This document shows, one piece after another, positions 10,403 through 43,062 of a stretch of DNA of 43,238 bases. The DNA is from an uncultured Oscillospiraceae bacterium (GTDB taxonomy: Bacteria; Bacillota; Clostridia; Oscillospirales; Oscillospiraceae): contig CANQQB010000011.1 in NCBI GenBank assembly GCA_947625845.1, positions 1 through 43,238 on the forward strand. The letters are read 5' to 3'. The notes below the pieces were generated by a model that was not told the origin of the DNA, did not search any database, and saw nothing but the letters and a program-made list of their open reading frames with translations. The position numbers were made by a program, and so were the translations under genes. Each line of letters starts with the position of its first letter. Position 1 is the first letter of the stretch.

Positions 10403-12829
10403 TTATTTTGTGTACTTCACACTATTACTCGCCTTGTACGGTCCCAGCAGCGTCTTCTTATCATTCGCGCAGCACCTTACCGTAAACGCATAGGTGACAC
10501 CGTTCTTCAAATACTTCGCGGCCCTGGTGTAGGTGGTGCTGGTCGTCGTGCCTATCTTTTTCCAGCCCCCGCCGTTCTCCTTATAATACACCATATACCG
10601 CGGCGAGCCCGAGATTTTATTCCACGTGACCTTGATGCCCCCGGCAACCTTCGCGATCTTCACCGTGGGCGCGGCCAATTGGGGCGCTTTGCCCAAGGAT
10701 TCAAATTGGTAGCCGTATTTGTCCGCGTAGGTCTGGGCCGTAGAACCGGCGTAGCCGTAGACCACCGTTGTACCCGGCATACCCAGCTCCGCGCCATAAT
10801 AATCATTGATATCGCAACTGGGGTTTTGGATGATCATGCTCTTCAGGTCGGCACACCCCATAAAGGCGCCAGCACAAACATCATTCACGCTGGCGGGGAG
10901 CGTCACACTTTGTAGCGACGTGCAGTTATCAAATGCAAAGTCCCCGATACTCTTCACGCCGTTTTCGATCGTCAAACTGGTCAATGCCTCGCAGAGGCCG
11001 AACGCGCCTATCCTTATACTGGTCACATTGCCGGGTATCGTCACGTCCTTCATGCTGCGGCAGTAAAAAAACGCATATCCCCCGATGTAGGTCACGCCGT
11101 TTCCGATCGTCACGCTCTCCAGCGACTCGCACCAGCCAAACGCGCTGTCCCCAACGCTGGTCACACTGTCCGGGATCGTTACACTGGGCAGCGCGTCGCA
11201 GTCTTTAAACGCACTTTCCCCGATGCTGGTCACGCCGTTTTCGATGACAACCTTTTTGATGGAAGATCGATAGGAATACCACGGGGTATTGCCAGAAGAA
11301 AAATCCTCCATCGCGCCGGTGCCGGAGATGGTGAGGGTCCCGTTGGCAAAAGACCACCGAACATTATCCCCGCATGCGCCGGAGTTCGTCTCCGTGGGTG
11401 TGGGCGCTTTGCCCAGGGATTCAAATTTATAGCCGTATTTCTTCGCATGGTCTTCGGCGGTAGAGCCGTTGTACCCGCAGAGTATGGCCCCTTCTTCAAA
11501 TGCCGGTTCATAATACGGAAAGCCATGCAGGTTGTCATATGCAGTTACAGCAATATCACACTTCGGATTCAGAAATATGATCTTGGCAGGTCCCATAAGC
11601 GCCTCGTCACCAACAGAATCAACGGAGGCAGGGACTGTGATCTCCGGCAGGCCGCTGCAGGATAAAAACGCCTGAGCGTTGATTTTTTTGACAGAATTGG
11701 ACATGGTGATGCTTTTCAGCTTCTTGCAGCCGGAAAACGAACCGATCCCGATCTCTGTAACGGAATTGGGCATGGAAACACTCGTCAGATTTTCGCAATC
11801 CGCAAAAAGATAGCTTGGTATGTATGTCACATTGCTGCCAAAGGTCGCTTTCAGCCCACTGCTTGCGCCAGCGCCCTCAAACGGAAAAGAGGATCCACGT
11901 CGGTCATTTAAGACATCAGCTAGTTTGTCGCTATTAATGGCAACCGATTTGAGCGCCGTGCACCCATAAAAACACAGGCCTCCGATGTAAGTTACCGAAC
12001 CAGGGATCTCAACACTGGGCAAAGATGAGCAGCCTAAAAATACCCCTTCATACGGAAAGGCCTCGTAGGAAAAATCTTTCTCGCCCAGCGATGTGATAGA
12101 ATCGGGAATGCGAATACTGGTGAGGCCGGAAGCGCAAAACGCTCCGCCCTTAATGGTCGTGACTGAGGTCGGGATATCGATCGTTTTCAGACTAGTACAA
12201 TTGAAAAATGCACCTCTCCCGATAGAGGTAACAGATTTAGGAATGCTGACACTGGCCAGAGAGGTGCATTCAGCAAACGCACAGTGCCCAATAGAGGTGA
12301 CCCCGTTGTTAATAACGACCTTTTTAATGCTTGTAAGGTTTTTCCGCCAAGGGGTGGAGACAAAAATGATGTTACCGAACTCAGCATAATAATCGTCCAT
12401 CGCCCCCTTGCCGGAGATGGTCAGCGTGCCGCCGCTGAGGGACCACGTGACATTGGCCCCGCACTTGCCGGACGTGTCCGCCGCCGTCTCCGGCTCGGTC
12501 TCCGGTTCCTCGACCGGTTCTTCTTCCGGTTCTTCCGTGACTTCAACCGGTTCTTCCGGTTCCTTGACCGGTTCTTCCGTGACTTCGACCGGTTCCTCCG
12601 TGACCACCGGTTCCTCCGTGACCTCCACCGGTTCCTCCGTGACCTCCACCGGCTCCTCCGTGACCTCAACGGGTTCTTCGGTCACTTCGACGGGTTCTTC
12701 CGTGACCTCAACGACTTCCTCCGTCACGACTTCCTCCGTTGCAACGACTTCTTCCTCCGCAAGCGCTGGGACGCTCAGCGAAAAGAGCGTCACCAGCGCC
12801 AGGAGCAGACATAGACCGCGCTTTGTCAT
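10403..12829 (-). CDS. secreted BspA-like leucine-rich-repeat protein with EPVEVTE repeats and C-terminal FN3
   Basis: 808 residues. Signal peptide (MTKRGLCLLLALVTLFSLSVPALA). Residues ~25-95 are a strongly acidic Pro/Glu/Val/Thr repeat (unit EEPVEVT). Two copies of a module follow: each opens with a CG(A/D)NVxW...GTLTISGxGAM(D/E)D segment, continues with BspA/LRR_5 repeats (VTSIGxxAFxxCxSLxSVxIP) and closes with a YGYxFESLGKAP segment, indicating internal duplication. The end is a fibronectin type III-like domain (APTVKIAKVAGGIKVTWNKI). Such proteins are extracellular and often bind host or matrix proteins; the ligand here is unknown. No sortase signal or other wall anchor is seen. RBS AAAGGTG is suboptimal. 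Confidence 0.88.
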   Translation of the reverse strand: MTKRGLCLLLALVTLFSLSVPALAEEEVVATEEVVTEEVVEVTEEPVEVTEEPVEVTEEPVEVTEEPVEVTEEPVVTEEPVEVTEEPVKEPEEPVEVTEEPEEEPVEEPETEPETAADTSGKCGANVTWSLSGGTLTISGKGAMDDYYAEFGNIIFVSTPWRKNLTSIKKVVINNGVTSIGHCAFAECTSLASVSIPKSVTSIGRGAFFNCTSLKTIDIPTSVTTIKGGAFCASGLTSIRIPDSITSLGEKDFSYEAFPYEGVFLGCSSLPSVEIPGSVTYIGGLCFYGCTALKSVAINSDKLADVLNDRRGSSFPFEGAGASSGLKATFGSNVTYIPSYLFADCENLTSVSMPNSVTEIGIGSFSGCKKLKSITMSNSVKKINAQAFLSCSGLPEITVPASVDSVGDEALMGPAKIIFLNPKCDIAVTAYDNLHGFPYYEPAFEEGAILCGYNGSTAEDHAKKYGYKFESLGKAPTPTETNSGACGDNVRWSFANGTLTISGTGAMEDFSSGNTPWYSYRSSIKKVVIENGVTSIGESAFKDCDALPSVTIPDSVTSVGDSAFGWCESLESVTIGNGVTYIGGYAFFYCRSMKDVTIPGNVTSIRIGAFGLCEALTSLTIENGVKSIGDFAFDNCTSLQSVTLPASVNDVCAGAFMGCADLKSMIIQNPSCDINDYYGAELGMPGTTVVYGYAGSTAQTYADKYGYQFESLGKAPQLAAPTVKIAKVAGGIKVTWNKISGSPRYMVYYKENGGGWKKIGTTTSTTYTRAAKYLKNGVTYAFTVRCCANDKKTLLGPYKASNSVKYTK

Positions 12830-31760: not shown

Positions 31761-32070
31761 AAAAATGGTGTCCCCGGCTATGCCGTGGACGCGTTGGATT
31801 TTAATGCTTCTCTCCCTCCGTCGTCGTCGCCGCTCGCCGGGCTAGGTCGTGATTTGCCGCAAGCGGCAAACCCCGAGTAGCCCGCGGCGTCTCCTCTCCC
31901 CACGCGACAAGCGTGCCGCGTGGGGGCCCCGATGGCCGCGCCACCTCCCCCGTCAGGGGGAGGCGGGGGCTTTGCCCCCGAATCGGCCCCGTAGGGGCCG
32001 GCCCCCTCTGACGAGGGGGCTGTCAGCGCTCTGCGCTGACTGGGGGAGAGATATTTAAATATTACCTTAT
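31761..32070. repeat. intergenic mosaic repeat, family A (full version)
   Basis: Contains all blocks of the family: GGTGTCCCCGGC, GCCGTGGACGCGTTGG, CTTCTCTCCCTCCGTCG, TCGCCGCTCG, GTCGTGATTTGCCGCAAGCG, GCGTGCCGCGTGGGGGCCCC, CCACCTCCCCCGTCAGGGGG, GGCCCCGTAGGGGCCGGCCC, ending GGGGGAGAGATATTTAAAT. Nearly identical in order and sequence to 32991-33300. Confidence 0.85.
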
Positions 32071-33997: not shown

Positions 33998-35533
33998 TTA
34001 CAGCACGAAGAAGGTGCAGGTCATGGGAGCAAGCTCCACCTTCCCGGCGGCCTGGGGCACGCCAACCAATGCGGGCAGGGCATTGTCCGGACCCAGGACC
34101 AGGTCCTGGCCGTTGCAGGTCATGACCGTGGCCCGCTTGTTGCCGTCCTTGCCGGCCAGGGTGTACCGCTCCGCGTCCCTGGGCAGCTCCACGGTGGTGG
34201 GCTCCGTCTCGCTGTTGTTGATGACCAGATACACCGCGCCGGGCTTGCCGTCCTTCCGGCTGTGGGCATAGACGTGCGCGCCCATGCGGACGGGTTCGCC
34301 GGTGTCGTAAACCGTTTGACCCATGAGCCGCACCCACAGCAGCACGGCGAAGTAGTTTGGCCGGGGGTCGTGGGTGACCCGGTCCAGGTAGGCGTAGTCG
34401 GAGGCGGCCAGGGTATTGTGGAAGATGATGCCGTCGGTGACGGCGGAGAAGCCGCCCGCCTCGTTCAGCGTCCGCAGCACGTCCAGGTACGTGGAGGCCC
34501 AGGTGTCCCCGCCGCCGCCGGCGTCGCCGGACTCGGTGACCCACATCTGCCCGCCGGGGCAGTACGCATCCCGCAGGGGGACGTAGGCCCTGGCGTTGTT
34601 GGCCGCCACGGCCAGGTAGGCCTCGGAGTTGGCCTCCTCCGCCAGCCAGTGGCCGGAGGGCATCGCCCCCGCCAGCCGCTCGGACACGCCGTTATAATAG
34701 TGATAGCTGAACACGTCCAGAGGGCAGGGGTCCGGACCCATCAGCTCTCGGGTAGAGCAGCTCCTGGCCAGCAGCTCCACACCGCCGCCGCCGGACTTGT
34801 CCCCCTCCTTGCCGATGGAGCCCTCGGACCCCACGGAGCAGGGTCCCACGTACAGGCAGTCGGGGTAGTTCTTTTTCAGCCATTCACAGAAGATCTTCTG
34901 GTCCCGCGCATGGTCCGCGGCGGTGTACCCGGTGGGGAAACCGGTGTCCTCCAGCATGTTGGGCTCGTTGACGAACTCGGACGCGCTGATGGGCACGCCG
35001 TAGTCGGCGCTGAATTTGAAGAGCTTCTCCGCCTCACGGGGCGTCCAGGGCGGGACAGGGGCCTTGTCGGTGCCGTACACGCCGGGACACGCGGACACGG
35101 ACACCAGCAGCTTAGCCCCCACCGCCTTCACGAAGTCCAGCACGCCGACCCACTGCTCCCTTGTCAGGGTGTTCAGATACCCCTCGGGCACCTTGCCGCC
35201 CATGGACCCGTCCAGATCGTAGTAGGTCTTGGTGGCCCAGGTACCGGACACCCGCACCCACAGGGGACCGAACGCCTTCGCCAGTGCCCGCAGCTTCTCG
35301 TCGTACAAATTGATGGGCGGGTACACCTGCATCAGGTCCTTGTAGGCCGCCGCCAGCCCGCCGCTCATGTCCACCTGGAAACTCTCCGTGCCGGCGATCT
35401 GGCCGGGGGTGTAGGCCTTCCAGAAGGTGCCGCCGGTGACCTCGGCGAACTCGATGTTGTAGCTCATCAGCGCCGGGTCCGTCTGGTGCAGCGCTTTTAG
35501 CTCTTCCGGTCTCAGTTTCACAAATTCCGCCAT
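33998..35533 (-). CDS. GH79-like glycoside hydrolase (heparanase/beta-glucuronidase family)
   Basis: 511 residues, no signal peptide, so apparently cytoplasmic. Clan GH-A features: ASEFVNEPNM with the acid/base Glu ~190 (N-E-P motif), and WVTESGDAGGGGDTWAST with the probable nucleophile Glu ~334, similar to the ETSSAYGGG region of heparanase. The C-terminal part (AVYLVINNSETEPTTVELP) is the beta-sandwich usual in GH79. Such enzymes release glucuronic acid or related residues; the actual substrate is unknown. RBS AGGAGA 7 nt before ATG. A terminator hairpin separates it from the upstream operon, so its expression may depend on read-through. Confidence 0.75.
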   Translation of the reverse strand: MAEFVKLRPEELKALHQTDPALMSYNIEFAEVTGGTFWKAYTPGQIAGTESFQVDMSGGLAAAYKDLMQVYPPINLYDEKLRALAKAFGPLWVRVSGTWATKTYYDLDGSMGGKVPEGYLNTLTREQWVGVLDFVKAVGAKLLVSVSACPGVYGTDKAPVPPWTPREAEKLFKFSADYGVPISASEFVNEPNMLEDTGFPTGYTAADHARDQKIFCEWLKKNYPDCLYVGPCSVGSEGSIGKEGDKSGGGGVELLARSCSTRELMGPDPCPLDVFSYHYYNGVSERLAGAMPSGHWLAEEANSEAYLAVAANNARAYVPLRDAYCPGGQMWVTESGDAGGGGDTWASTYLDVLRTLNEAGGFSAVTDGIIFHNTLAASDYAYLDRVTHDPRPNYFAVLLWVRLMGQTVYDTGEPVRMGAHVYAHSRKDGKPGAVYLVINNSETEPTTVELPRDAERYTLAGKDGNKRATVMTCNGQDLVLGPDNALPALVGVPQAAGKVELAPMTCTFFVL

Positions 35534-37534: not shown

Positions 37535-38962
37535 TCAAAGATTCTGGAAGTTGCTCAGGTAATACCCGTCGCCCTCCCGCAGGAAGTAAAGGCGCATGGT
37601 GGCGTCCGCGTAATCCTGATGCTGGCCCCGGAGGGTACAGTCCGCGTCGTAGCTCACGTCGATGCTGAAGCAGTTGTCCGCCCAGCGCAGCACGGCCCCG
37701 GCGGTGGTCTTGCTCACGTCGATATCGTTGTGGTGGGTGGTCCACCGGACGCTCTCATGGGTATTTTGCAGCTCGGCATAGGCCTGAGTCCCCCCGCGCA
37801 GATACGCCAGCGCGCCGCCCAGGTTGCCCCCGGGGTTCTGCCCGCCGCACATGAAATAGTACACGTCCTTTTTGACGAACTCCACCGCCCGCTCGGCGTA
37901 GGCGGCGGTGTCGCTCTTGTCCGCAAGCAGGTATTGCTCGTCCCCGATGGGGAGCAGATCGAACCCCTCCGGCACCTGAGCGGTCATCTCCGGCTTGAGC
38001 AGCAGCCCGTCCACCGCGTAGCGCACCCAGGCCACGGGGTTTTCCAAAACCCCGTCCAGGGCGTGATAGCCCATCAGCGTCTCGGCCTCCTGCCGGTATT
38101 CCTCCCCCAGCTCTTGGCCGTTGCACAGCACCTTGCACGTGCTGGGCACGGTCACGGCGGCGCTGTGCTCGCCCTGGAAGAGAAGCTCCACGTCGGACAC
38201 GGCCCAGTCCAGCTCCCGGCCGGTGAGCGTTACCCGCGCCAGAGCCTCCCCGCCGCCGTTTTGCAGCACATAGACCGGCGATTCCTGGGTGAACTCCGGG
38301 GCCTTGTACGCCTGGACAGCGTCCGGTGCGAAGCGCTCGCGCATGTAATCATACACCGCGTCCCGTGTGTCCAGGTCGTTGGGGGACTGCTCATACCACA
38401 GGTCCGTCCAGTAGTCCGTGGTGAGGGCGTTTTCCCAGTCCTCGAAGGCAAGCTGGGGGGCCTGGAACAGGGCCTTCTCATGGGCCGCTTTGGCATTCTG
38501 AGCAGCCTCGGTCCTGTCCTTCTGCGCCTGCTCATCGCCCACGTAGCGCCAGAACCGCCACAGCCCGTACCCGGAGCCTATCAGCAATACCAGGGCGTAC
38601 AGGGCCAAACAGGCCCGCCAGAGCTTTTTGCGCCGCCGCTTCCTTTTGGCCGCCTCTGTCCGGGCCGCGGCCTGGACCGGCCGGACCTTTTCCGGCCGGG
38701 GCGCAGGCGCGGCGGCCCGTTCCTTTCCGGGCCTGGGCGCGCTCGCCGGGGCCTTGACGTGGGACGGCCCGGTCTTCTCCGCCCTGAGCGGCGCGGGCGT
38801 CGGCCTGGCCCTTTCCGGCGCGGGCGCGGGGGTCCTGACGTGGGACGGCCCGGCTTTTGCCGCCTGGGGCTTTGGGGGCTTGGGCGCGGGTCTGTCCGAC
38901 TTGGGCGCGTGCTTCGGCACTCGCGCGGGGGTGCTGGAATGTTTTCCCTCGTATCTGGCCAT
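37535..38962 (-). CDS. single-pass membrane protein with Ala/Pro-rich basic N-terminus, unknown
   Basis: 475 residues, family not recognised. Residues 1-110 are low-complexity, rich in Pro, Ala, Lys and Arg, with a repeated GPSHV(R/K)(T/A)PA(P/S)AP motif. A basic patch KRKRRRKKLWR precedes one membrane helix (ACLALYALVLLIGSGYGLWRF), so the ~340-residue rest should be outside the cell. That part has no catalytic motif I can name; its late region (DIDVSKTTAGAVLRWADNCF, GDGYYLSNFQNL) resembles the beta-rich ends of NTF2-like or penicillin-binding-protein-like accessory domains only vaguely. Starts 1 bp after the phosphodiester glycosidase stop, in the same operon. Confidence 0.7.
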   Translation of the reverse strand: MARYEGKHSSTPARVPKHAPKSDRPAPKPPKPQAAKAGPSHVRTPAPAPERARPTPAPLRAEKTGPSHVKAPASAPRPGKERAAAPAPRPEKVRPVQAAARTEAAKRKRRRKKLWRACLALYALVLLIGSGYGLWRFWRYVGDEQAQKDRTEAAQNAKAAHEKALFQAPQLAFEDWENALTTDYWTDLWYEQSPNDLDTRDAVYDYMRERFAPDAVQAYKAPEFTQESPVYVLQNGGGEALARVTLTGRELDWAVSDVELLFQGEHSAAVTVPSTCKVLCNGQELGEEYRQEAETLMGYHALDGVLENPVAWVRYAVDGLLLKPEMTAQVPEGFDLLPIGDEQYLLADKSDTAAYAERAVEFVKKDVYYFMCGGQNPGGNLGGALAYLRGGTQAYAELQNTHESVRWTTHHNDIDVSKTTAGAVLRWADNCFSIDVSYDADCTLRGQHQDYADATMRLYFLREGDGYYLSNFQNL

Positions 38963-38963
38963 C

Positions 38964-39977
38964 TTACCCCTCCCCCTCGTCCGGGGCCATCACAAGAATG
39001 GCCGTGGGTATCCGGAGCAGATAGTCGTTCCAGACAAGCTGCTCGCCCTGATAGTACATGTCGGAGGAACCGCCGCCGTCCAGACTGCCGGCGTTGACCG
39101 CGCCGTATTCCAGCATGATCTCGGCCGTCTGCCGGTTCGTCGCGCCGATGCTGTCGGGCCGGCGGCCCTCCGCCACCAGCAGCATCACCGTGCCGTCCTC
39201 GGTCTGGCCCAGGGCCGTCCGGGGGTTCAGGGTGCCGCCGGCGTCGCACTGTATTTCCCCGTCCTTGACCAGCGTGGGACCGGCGTTGAAGCTCAGGCCG
39301 GACACGATGCCCATGTCCAGCGCCTCCCGGCCGGTCATGTTGCCCACATGCAGCACGTGGTCGGCGTCAAAGCCCATCACGTTGCGGTAATAGCCGCCGG
39401 GGGAGCCGTGGGCAAACTGGCCGTCCCGGATCACCATGCCGTCCGGCGTGCCGCCGGCGGGGGCGAAAAACCCCGCGCCGTTGATGCCGCCGATGGCCCC
39501 GTATTTGTCGAGAAGCTCCGTCAGCAGCACCCCCTGGCCGCCGAAGTGGTCGATGGTGCCGATGACCACCAGGGACGGGTCGTGGACCAGCAGCAGCACG
39601 GCCCGGAACGCGTCCTTTTTAATATGTACGACCTCGATCGCGTCCGTCTGCTCCTCCGCCGGCACAGCCTCGTCCTCAGCGGGCGCGGCCTGGTCCGCCT
39701 GGACCGGCGCTGCAGACAGCTCCTCAAAGCTGTCCGGGACCGTGGGCGTGGGGGCCGGGTGCAGGATGGCGTCGATCTCATCCTCGTCGAAAAAAAGCCT
39801 TGGCACGAAACTGAGCGTGTCGGAGTCCTCAAAGCCCGCCACGAATTTCTCCTGCCACAGGTCCGACGGACCGTATGCCATCACCGCGCAGGCGCCGCCC
39901 GCCGCCAGCGCGCCGATGGCGGCCGTCAGCACCAGCACAGTCATGATTTTTCCCAGTGTTCTCAGGAAAATTCTCAC
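38964..39977 (-). CDS. phosphodiester glycosidase-family (NAGPA domain) membrane protein
   Basis: 337 residues. One N-terminal membrane helix (~10-34), an acidic Ala/Pro/Glu linker (~75-112), then the NAGPA domain outside the cell: AIGGINGAGFFAPAGGTPDG, VSGLSFNAGPTLVKDG, NPRTALGQTEDGTVMLLVAE and GSLDGGGSSDMYY. NAGPA is named for the mammalian enzyme removing GlcNAc from phosphodiesters; bacterial members such as YngK/StrH-associated forms act on wall or exopolysaccharide glycans. The exact bond is unknown. First gene of the operon with the membrane protein, GT2-GtrA and EFR1. Confidence 0.88.
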   Translation of the reverse strand: MRIFLRTLGKIMTVLVLTAAIGALAAGGACAVMAYGPSDLWQEKFVAGFEDSDTLSFVPRLFFDEDEIDAILHPAPTPTVPDSFEELSAAPVQADQAAPAEDEAVPAEEQTDAIEVVHIKKDAFRAVLLLVHDPSLVVIGTIDHFGGQGVLLTELLDKYGAIGGINGAGFFAPAGGTPDGMVIRDGQFAHGSPGGYYRNVMGFDADHVLHVGNMTGREALDMGIVSGLSFNAGPTLVKDGEIQCDAGGTLNPRTALGQTEDGTVMLLVAEGRRPDSIGATNRQTAEIMLEYGAVNAGSLDGGGSSDMYYQGEQLVWNDYLLRIPTAILVMAPDEGEG

Positions 39978-40238: not shown

Positions 40239-40286
40239 TGTTCCAAATCGTAACCATTTTGTAACTTTCTTAGAGAGAGGACTTGG

Positions 40287-42689
40287 GTGAGCGGTATGGC
40301 AGAGGATAGATTCCGGCCCACGGCGCTGCTGGCGGGCTATCTGAAGGAGACGGACCCTGACAAGGCGGTGAAGCTGGCGCGGGAGCTGTGCGACCAGCTG
40401 GAGGATGACCCGGACAGCTTCCACGGCGGCATCTGGCCGGGCAACGTGGACCTGAACGTGGACGGCAACGCCGTGCTGGGCGGGCCCAACCACACCGCGC
40501 CCAACCAGCGGCCGGCGGACCAGGTGGAATATCTGGCGCCGGAGTATTTCTGGGACAGCGCCGGTTCCGCCGCGGCGGACGTGTACTCCGTGGGCCTGAT
40601 GCTCTACGCCGGGTGCAACGGGGGGTATCTGCCCTTCCAGCCCAAGGGCGGCGCGCTGACGGACAAGGACCGCTCGGACGCGCTGCGCCGGCGCATGAAG
40701 GGCGAGAAGGTCGCCGCGCCGGAGGGCGTCAGCCCGGAGCTTAAGAAGATCATGGAAAAGGCCCTGGCCTATGAGCCGGAGGCCCGGTATATCACGGCCA
40801 GGGAGTTCCTCTCCGCCCTGGGCAGGACGGACGAGGCCCTGCCCGCCGCCGCGCCTGCGGCGAAGACGGAGGATAAGCCGACGGAGAACAGGCCCGCCGA
40901 GACCGCCGCGCCCGAAGAGGCCAAGCCCGCGGACGAGTCCGTGCCTGCCAAGTCGGAGGCCAGCCAGGACAACAAGACGGCGGCAGCCGCGGGAGCCGTG
41001 GCGGCAGGAGCCGCCGTTGCGGGAGCCGCAGCCGTGGCCGGCAGCAAGGGCGGGAAAAAGCGCTCCAACAAGAAGCGCAACGCCCAGAACAGGGCCCAGG
41101 CCCAGAAGAGATCCGCACCTGCGGAGAATAAACCCACAGAAGAGGCGGCAGCAGCCACCGATGGTAAGCCCGCGGAGGAAGCCTCCGCGCCTGCTGAGGA
41201 CAAACCGGCGGAAGATACCTCCGCGCCTACCGAGGATAAACCGGCAGAAGAGGCGGCCGAGCCTGCTGAAGATAAGCCGGCGGAAGAGGCACCCAAGGCC
41301 ACCGAAGATAAACCGGCGGAAGATACCTCCGCGCCTACCGAGGATAAACCGGCGGAAGATACCCCCGTGCCGGCGGAGGACAAGCCCGTGGAGGAAGCCT
41401 CCGCGCCTACAGAGGACAAGCCGACGGAGGCGGCAGCGGCAGCGGCCGTGGCGGCAGGTGCAGCGGGAGCCGCTCATACCACCCCCAAGTACAGCGTCCA
41501 GAAGGACTTTGAGAAGAAGCCCCGGACCCAGCAGCAGCGCAAAGCGGCCGTTCCCGCCGCCCAGCGGAAGAAAAAGCGCTCGAAGGCCGTGCCCATCCTG
41601 TGCGCCGCGGCGGTGCTGGTGCTGCTGGGCAGCGTGGGATATATGGCCGGGCTGTTCGGCGGTCAGCCGGCCACGTCCGAGGTCTATAACACCCCGGAGG
41701 CGGAGCCCCCCTCCCCCATCGTGGTCTCCCCCATCCCCAGCGCCACGCCGGAGCCCACCGCCACCCCCGCGCCTACCGGCACCCCCAGGCCGTCGCCCTC
41801 CGCCACGCCGATCCCCACGCCCGGCGAGGACGGGACGGTCCCCGGTGAGGAGACCGCCGGCGGCGAGACCGGTACCGTGACCATCGGCGGAACGGGTACC
41901 GGGACGGGTACAGGGACCGGTGCCGGCACGGGTACCGGCACCGGGACAGGTACTGGAACCGGTACGGGTACGGGCACCGGCTGGGGTACAGGTACGGGCA
42001 CGGGCACTGGTACCGGGACTGGTACAGGCACCGGGACCGGTAACAGCGGTTACACGGTGAGTCCCGCCGGGGGCACGGTCTATCTGACCGGCAACGGCGT
42101 GCGGGTCCGCACCGGCCCCGGCACGGGCTACGGCATCATCGGCGCGGTGAGCACCGGCGACAGCCTGACCCGCACCGGCACAGTGGCCAACGGCTGGACC
42201 CAGGTGAGCTACAACGGCATGACGGGCTATGTGTACAGCCAATATCTGACTGACAGCACCCCCGCCGCCACGGATACGCCGGCGCCTGCGCCGGAGGTAA
42301 CGCCGGAGGTACCGGCAGCCCCCAAAAATTACGGGGCCGCGAAAGCCGGCACGACCTATGACGGGGCCGTCTCCGCCGCCGGGAGCCTGGCGGTGATAGG
42401 CGGACAGGCGGACTTCGACGCCGCCACGGCGAAGATGCAGGAACAGGGCTTACAGTACGCGTGGGTCGGCGTGGAGTTCGACGGGAGCCACTGGACCTGG
42501 GCCGACGGGACCACGCTGTCCACGGAGGACGCGCACTGGGCCAACGGCTATCCCATCTCGGGCCACGCTCACGTGATGCTCGCCATGACCGAGTCCGGCG
42601 CCTGGCGGTACATGTCCGTCCCCGCTGACTTCGACCCGGCGGCAGATGGCAGATACGCGGACGTGTTCGGGTATATCACGGAAGAGTAA
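40287..42689 (+). CDS. membrane pseudokinase with extracellular SH3b and C-type-lectin-like domains
   Basis: 800 residues. GTG start at 40287 is favoured by GAGAGAGG 6 nt upstream over the ATG 9 nt later. Residues ~12-180 resemble only the C-lobe of a Ser/Thr kinase: catalytic-loop-like HGGIWPGNV (the HRD Asp is missing, Asn kept), LGGP in place of DFG, YLAPE (APE motif), [10 protein letters not shown], and the helix up to FLSALG. The N-lobe with the glycine loop and ATP lysine is absent, so it should be inactive. Residues ~190-400 are Ala-rich with repeated EDKPAE units; a basic patch (QRKKKRSK) precedes one membrane helix (~434-455). Outside: a Pro/Thr linker, ~50 residues of alternating Gly-Thr (~534-585), an SH3b domain (~598-655: [28 protein letters not shown]), and a C-type-lectin-like domain (~695-800: [25 protein letters not shown]). 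Ligand and partner are unknown. Confidence 0.82.
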
Positions 42690-42698
42690 AGGAATTGT

Positions 42699-42990
42699 CT
42701 CTCCCCCAGTCAGCGCAAAGCGCTGACAGCCCCCTGGGGTCCCCAAAAGGCACGCTTGCCTTTTGGGGAGAGGAGGAGCCGCGGGCTACTCGGGGTTTGC
42801 CGCTTGCGGCGAATCCCGACCTAGCCCAGCGAGCGACGACGACAGAGGGGGCCGGCCCCTCCGGGGCCGATTCGGGGGCAAAGCCCCCGCCTCCCCCTGA
42901 CGGGGGAGGTGGCTCGCCCGCCAGGGCGAGACGGAGGGAGAGAAACATTAGAATCCAACGGGTCCACGGCGAAGCCGGGGACACCTTTGG
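42699..42990. repeat. intergenic mosaic repeat, family A, inverted and rearranged
   Basis: Reverse orientation relative to the other copies: opens TCTCCCCCAGTCAGCG, contains GCGGGCTACTCGGGGTTTGC, AGGGGGCCGGCCCC, GATTCGGGGGC and ACGGGGGAGGTGG, ends GCCGGGGACACCTTTG. An extra hairpin block (CCCCAAAAGGC...GCCTTTTGGGG) and a changed block order show recombination between modules. Confidence 0.8.
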
Positions 42991-43003: not shown

Positions 43004-43062
43004 TCGTTACAACCCTCCAGTCAGCGCAAAGCGCTGACAGCCCCCCTTACACAGGGGGGCCT
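43004..43062. repeat. intergenic repeat, family B (short)
   Basis: GTTACAACCCTCCAGTCAGC, GCGCAAAGCGCTGACAG, then CCCCCCTTACACAGGGGGGC. Same class as 10235-10370. Confidence 0.65.

Follow-up and report, generated by a model that had tools for sequence, protein, structure and literature searches.

PASTA kinases such as PrkC and PknB place a kinase domain inside the cell, a transmembrane (TM) helix in the membrane, and wall-facing domains outside. Here we describe a gene with the same outline from an uncultured Oscillospiraceae bacterium (GenBank assembly GCA_947625845.1, contig CANQQB010000011.1, positions 1 to 43,238; this 43,238-nucleotide stretch is the window), in which the kinase part is a half-size, catalytically dead lobe (the half-kinase) and the outer part combines an SH3b domain with a C-type-lectin-like domain. 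PknB is the best solved-structure match of the half-kinase profile, but the half-kinase lacks the N-lobe, the catalytic residues, and the PASTA domain; among the Pfam matches of the window protein up to E 10 there was no PASTA domain, and NF033483 reached 35.8 bits against a cut-off of 450. Dead kinase domains in membrane proteins have been described. As far as the accessible part of PMC12599244 goes, EssB/YukC, the membrane pseudokinase of the type VIIb secretion system (T7SSb) published as a non-catalytic scaffold, shares with the half-kinase a cytosolic dead kinase domain, a TM helix, and occurrence in Firmicutes. EssB/YukC, however, has a degraded glycine-rich loop, an N-lobe element, whereas no N-lobe was found for the half-kinases, whose outer domains are SH3b and lectin-like. 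In the same part of the source, MviN (ActPs3) contains a dead kinase domain within a membrane protein and differs in having an N-lobe, where family constraints and dimer-interface residues concentrate. That part covers EssB/YukC, MviN, and seven pseudokinase families (ActPs1-3, GLW, CP1, DYD, and DLHK) as variants of a two-lobed fold and describes none of them as lacking the N-lobe, a comparison with the half-kinases made by description only; the words "lectin" and "SH3" are absent from the text of PMC12599244.

Functionally, the half-kinase works most like EssB/YukC, as a non-catalytic membrane pseudokinase, yet it is not a member of that family, because homology to PF10140 (EssB/YukC) and co-occurrence with EssC both fail: no PF10140 match appeared for the window protein up to E 10 or genome-wide at E 0.1, and 49 of the 56 genomes that carry a half-kinase (see below) have no EssC match at E 1e-60. 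A Ser/Thr kinase joined to a C-terminal lectin-like domain occurs among the variable proteins of cyanobacterial diversity-generating retroelements (DGRs); in the accessible part of PMC7517822 these proteins differ in having Hanks motifs, in being mostly predicted cytosolic, and in being diversified by the retroelement, while no template repeat was found for the half-kinase in the window's genome, which is 78.5% complete. None of the open-licence papers listed in literature searches describes a half-size kinase with a lectin-like domain. The half-kinase family is a variant of known bacterial membrane pseudokinases, new in design.

The anatomy of this family is firm: it is real, conserved, unusual, and receptor-like. 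It was defined from an alignment (A1) of 42 members, which leaves out L087, a true kinase (HRDIKPDN), and L041, which is cut by a contig end; profile A2 was built from the same 42. The window gene is organized as follows.

40287..42689, + strand: whole gene, encoding 800 amino acids (aa) in the order half-kinase, acidic linker, TM helix, Gly-Thr linker, SH3b, C-type-lectin-like domain
40273..40281, + strand: likely ribosome-binding site, GAGAGAGGA, as judged from the sequence
40287..40838, + strand: half-kinase domain, residues 1-184, covering a Hanks kinase from hinge/αD through αI, N-lobe absent
40416..40445, + strand: degenerate catalytic loop (HRDxKPxN), in which Gly replaces both the Arg and the catalytic Asp and the Pro and Asn are retained
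40482..40490, + strand: degenerate DFG, residues 66-68, reading GPN
40536..40553, + strand: APE motif followed by a family-specific F-W; W89 is present in 42/42 half-kinases and is not conserved in 21 full-length relatives
40578..40595, + strand: αF motif DVYSVG
40686..40706, + strand: RRRMKGE of the αG region; R136 is present in 42/42 half-kinases and 21/21 full-length relatives
41155..41428, + strand: tandem repeat (period 36/72 base pairs) encoding the acidic EDKPAEE... cytosolic linker
41490..41513, + strand: linker motif YSVQKDFE (YxV[DQ]KxFE), conserved in 21 of the 42 members
41589..41645, + strand: TM helix, residues 435-453, with a net positive N-terminal flank
41888..42042, + strand: Gly-Thr repeat linker
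42096..42248, + strand: SH3b domain (Pfam SH3_3), residues 604-654
42321..42686, + strand: C-type-lectin-like domain without the canonical EP[ST]/ND site

Pfam, profile, and fold searches all revealed C-lobe homology to Hanks-type kinases, extending from αE to αI and including the APE motif and the αF Asp. When residues 1-186 were scanned, Pkinase matched residues 79-174 at 34.5 bits (cut-off 31.7); in a scan of the whole protein Pkinase reached 30.7 bits, just below that cut-off, and PK_Tyr_Ser-Thr 29.3 bits against 23.1. The best sequence match of the half-kinase profile among solved structures was PknB (E 3e-15, profile positions 18-178), and all Foldseek rows shown for the lobe are kinases, as a sequence-only reading of this DNA had anticipated for the N-terminal part. 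That reading had also called the lobe dead and half-size, which is borne out by Pfam, by the family profile, and by the catalytic-residue columns of the 42 members. Neither the catalytic Asp of HRD nor DFG is present in the half-kinases: the Asp position holds G in 32 members, A in 5, C in 3, N in 1, and T in 1, and an intact DFG is found in 0/42, with an Asp at position 66 in 5. By contrast, 42/42 members keep each of the APE residues P and E, the αF Asp, and arginine R136 of the αG region. Member proteins start either close to the hinge or behind an extension that shows no homology to an N-lobe. A frameshift hiding a full N-lobe upstream, which the sequence-only reading had named as a way to be wrong, was looked for; an N-lobe profile (glycine loop, VAIK Lys, and αC; controls 168 and 171 bits) found nothing in six frames of the 42 loci, and a split gene with an upstream N-lobe was rejected on this blank result. 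A frameshift or assembly artifact was rejected as well, as the half-kinase is also present in the independent assemblies L039, L040, and L041 and in 56 genomes.

The design is conserved in other Oscillospiraceae. With residues 1-186 as the query, five further genomes of the window's genus gave 59-66% identity and many other genera ~35-45%. In a sample of 300 genomes of the window's GTDB family (106 genera; listed matches with E up to 1e-30, with at most 9-11 candidates per genome scored), profile A2 identified exactly one half-kinase in each of 56 genomes from 20 genera, at 179-242 bits, whereas all other listed matches scored at most 127.4 bits. Outside the family, the order-wide (295 genomes, some of which are family members) and phylum-wide (348 genomes) samples, scored under the same per-genome limit on candidates, gave no match above 126.6 bits. 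Each of 21 distinct lower-scoring proteins that we inspected has at least 122 open-frame residues ahead of its C-lobe match; 20 of them contain HRD and DFG (one DFS), and the remaining one, L097 of genome G532, reads HGD and GGF. A lectin-like match accompanies the half-kinase in 53 of the 56 genomes, and the other three (G192, G220, and G222) have short open frames of 395, 262, and 142 aa, probably due to contig ends.

Selection on the half-kinase is purifying, with Nei-Gojobori ratios of nonsynonymous to synonymous substitution rates (dN/dS) of 0.21 (window-L039), 0.23 (window-L040), 0.08 (L048-L049), and 0.15 (L051-L052), and it looks like a maintained protein, not a broken gene. A FastTree phylogeny of C-lobes recovers the 42 half-kinases as one monophyletic group (support 0.77) lying within full-length kinases, from which they descend and most of which share an LGDFG signature. 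L097, which belongs to another family of the same order, groups with the half-kinases in this tree (support 0.999). It is a full-length pseudokinase, dead like the half-kinases, with HRD replaced by HGD and DFG by GGF, but it differs from them in that its N-lobe is present (97.7 bits) and in having no lectin-like match. The grouping of this full-length dead kinase with the half-kinases suggests that catalysis may have been lost before the N-lobe, a suggestion that rests on this single sequence. L097 also carries a hydrophobic segment, and its outer part presumably resembles a VanW-type protein.

The membrane helix proposed in the sequence-only reading is supported at residues 435-453. Because the net charge N-terminal of this helix is positive, the expected orientation has the kinase part in the cytosol and the SH3b and lectin-like parts outside the cell. 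In 42/42 full-length members there is a hydrophobic segment whose N-terminal flank is basic; above a hydrophobicity cut of 1.6, there is one segment in 29 of them, two in 12, and three in 1. In the window protein an Ala/Gly-rich stretch at residues 233-251 likewise lies above the simple hydrophobicity cut and is unlikely to be a second membrane segment. The cytosolic linker is 58-255 residues long across the members. A YxV[DQ]KxFE-like motif, spotted by eye and therefore post hoc, occurs in it in 21 members versus ~0.01 expected in shuffled linkers, and another sub-group carries an ELS[DE]VERMM-like sequence directly after the lobe.

The two outer domains of the window protein are also supported. 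SH3_3 matches residues 604-654 at 47.9 bits (cut-off 27). The Pfam signals at the C terminus, Lectin_C and DUF5075, are weak, but the region scores 33.4 bits against a profile of the 34 members from outside the genus, with 0/500 shuffles reported, which places it by profile homology among the C-type-lectin-like domains. The family lectin profile matches solved C-type-lectin-like domains, single-domain ones at E 1e-12, and Lectin_C is found at E 0.01 in 36/42 members, the window protein not being among them when scanned whole. The canonical lectin motifs [EQ]P[ST] and ND, which we take to be the Ca/sugar site, are present in 34/34 members outside the window's genus (one QPS) and 0/8 inside, and a stricter pattern gives the same counts. 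SH3_3, in contrast, is present in 8/8 members of the genus, hence 8/42 overall, with no match at E 0.01 in the remaining 34. These eight comprise the window protein, L039, L040, and one each from genomes G294, G216, G257, G095, and G163; L039 and L040 were assigned to the genus by full-length identity to the window (83% and 66%). Thus, these sequence patterns indicate that the outer binding module is swapped in the window's genus, with SH3b present and the canonical lectin site lost. The link drawn in the sequence-only reading between the lectin-like domain and ligand binding is accordingly weakened for the window protein, since its genus has lost the site kept by 34/34 others and only its eight members have SH3b.

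The lectin-like domain itself is widespread, with matches to the family profile in 88 of the 300 genomes. In 20 further lectin-like regions that we inspected, its partners include active kinases (seven proteins) and bare TM segments. The seven (L184-L188, L200, and L201, from genomes G138, G198, G282, G123, G193, G025, and G240 of the family) are Hanks kinases with a hydrophobic segment and a C-terminal lectin-like domain of the same profile. They differ from the half-kinases in that the N-lobe, HRD, and DFG are present, and the C-lobe tree does not place them as sister to the half-kinases. The same lectin-like domain also ends long proteins with an N-terminal CxxC part and a hydrophobic segment (L189-L195 and L203); by the look of the sequence we take the N-terminal part to be zinc-ribbon-like and L189-L195 to contain a VWA-like region.

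We favor, with about even confidence, the view that the protein acts at the envelope as a receptor or anchor and that its pseudokinase, a C-lobe alone, docks a partner in the cytosol. Outside, the glycine-threonine stalk would bear the SH3b and lectin-like domains, which may hold or sense envelope or environmental glycans. Inside, the hinge-cut Hanks C-lobe without catalytic residues would serve as a non-catalytic docking module, with the YxV[DQ]KxFE motif in the flexible linker as a possible second contact point; the lobe would bind its partner, and binding outside could alter binding inside. A likely class of partner would be an active Hanks kinase, its substrates, or its phosphatase, given that PASTA kinases occur at E 1e-60 in 55 of the 56 half-kinase genomes (51 above the curated cut-off; 36/36 high-quality genomes), which is weak evidence. 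More tentatively, and a little short of even confidence, we propose that a hinge-cut C-lobe alone can be a self-standing protein-interaction domain and that these proteins form a half-kinase receptor class that couples an envelope-facing SH3b/lectin-like ectodomain to an adaptor consisting of the C-lobe alone, the outer module being swapped between genera and the inner lobe kept. That a family of single origin, one per genome and without an N-lobe, has gained invariant residues and is still constrained by purifying selection would demonstrate that the C-lobe can function as an autonomous module, and the half-kinases provide a natural system for asking what role a pseudokinase has when no nucleotide pocket can form. 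Comparison is possible among relatives that coexist: the full-length dead kinase L097, active kinase-TM-lectin proteins, half-kinases, and proteins that have no lobe.

Several observations weigh against the receptor model. The Foldseek superpositions are loose, with query TM-scores of at most 0.54 among the rows shown; the structure model of the lobe, built with 4 sequences, is middling in confidence (its five models average 68, 58, 42, 42, and 41); and that of the SH3b-lectin part is poor (predicted local distance difference test, pLDDT, 52). An extra hydrophobic segment, mostly in an Ala-rich linker or within the lobe, occurs in 13/42 members, and the YxVDKxFE motif is absent in 21/42. No conserved neighboring gene points to a partner: no cluster of neighbors recurs in more than 10 of 44 loci, in a weak test that used mechanical calling of open reading frames (ORFs) and grouped just 27 of the 44 kinase ORFs with one another; the cut L041 and the true kinase L087 are among these 44. 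PASTA kinases were counted in half-kinase genomes only, and their co-occurrence is weak evidence, such kinases being common. The strongest evidence against an indispensable lobe comes from genus g5, in which it appears that the lobe was lost and the rest kept: three genomes encode TM-lectin proteins of 240-400 aa without a kinase lobe. The one in G224 (L197/L204) starts with the post-kinase linker motif EMSDMERMM, and its gene adjoins two genes with homologs (38% and 56% identity) that are encoded ~2.7 kb away from the G174 half-kinase. The lobe can thus be dispensable. The lobe-less TM-lectin proteins of G109 and G264 lie in a different neighborhood from that of G224.

These g5 proteins, one of which has a linker motif that looks like a remnant and some neighbors in common with a half-kinase genome, are what would be expected if the protein were an adhesin or wall anchor in which the outer TM-SH3b/lectin part does the work and the lobe is a stabilizing cytosolic plug, an intermediate between kinase and nothing; so is the graded series from active kinase-TM-lectin through half-kinase-TM-lectin to TM-lectin. 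The retention of the lobe, one per genome in 20 genera, with gained invariants and dN/dS of 0.08-0.23, argues otherwise, as does the comparison of the window with L040, in which the lobe is 87% conserved and the lectin-like domain 53%, and we regard a passenger lobe as unlikely, if still deserving serious weight. A lobe that keeps its αG/P+1 face could instead be a decoy that competes with the active PASTA kinase for its substrates or regulators. The P and E of APE, the αF Asp, and R136, retained in every member, together with a PASTA kinase in nearly every half-kinase genome, would fit such competition, but PASTA kinases are so common that the co-occurrence is uninformative. Moreover, the closest full-length kinases are not of the PASTA type, the half-kinase profile giving 54 bits to the PASTA kinase of the window's own genome (L001) and 114 to its kinase L105, and we consider a decoy improbable.

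That the protein serves a type VII secretion system (T7SS) as an EssB/YukC-like subunit is suggested by the shared outline of cytosolic pseudokinase, TM helix, and outer domain and by an EssC-type ATPase cluster with kinase genes, though no YukC match, in the window's genome. However, EssC at E 1e-60 occurs in 7/56 half-kinase genomes versus 15/244 others (Fisher p 0.15), which makes a T7SS role unlikely; the half-kinase gene lies on contig C11 and the EssC cluster on C8, and the window protein has no match to PF10140, so that we give such a subunit very little credence. The position of the cut at the hinge raises the idea of a split kinase completed in trans by an N-lobe encoded elsewhere. 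The 42 loci hold no N-lobe, none of the eight Pkinase matches in the window's genome (78.5% complete) is confined to the N-lobe, and a completed fold would still be without the catalytic Asp and DFG; an active enzyme of this kind is scarcely credible. The chance that the protein is a DGR target is equally slight: it combines a kinase domain with a C-terminal lectin-like fold as do the cyanobacterial variable proteins in the part of PMC7517822 available, but the same 78.5%-complete genome contains no second copy of the lectin-coding DNA beyond short matches of at most 35 bits, reverse transcriptases not having been searched for.

Elsewhere in the window, the gene divergent to the half-kinase gene (38964-39977, - strand) encodes a phosphodiester glycosidase-like protein (NAGPA), and two ORFs at 33998-35533 and 37535-38962 (both - strand; 511 and 475 aa) have no Pfam match at E 1e-5. 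A BspA-type leucine-rich-repeat protein of 808 aa is encoded at 10403-12829 (- strand). A 27-base-pair palindromic repeat, AGTCAGCGCAAAGCGCTGACAGCCCCC, has 29 copies in the genome with at most one mismatch (18 forward and 11 reverse; none for a reversed-pattern control), and the window holds three copies, at 32015-32041, 42708-42734, and 43019-43045; it looks like a REP-type (repetitive extragenic palindromic) intergenic element.

Other kinase genes of the same genome were also noted. The EssC-type T7SS cluster on contig C8 (L088 and L089) contains three kinase genes and, presumably, FHA-, VWA-, and PP2C-like genes. A 313-aa kinase encoded at L089:3853-4794 (- strand) has FCG where HRD is expected and may be a pseudokinase with an N-lobe. 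Contig C18 (L091:6448-16407) encodes three consecutive kinases of ~1100 aa, each with a long, repetitive C-terminal region; all three contain HRD, and the middle one has NFA where the others have DFG.
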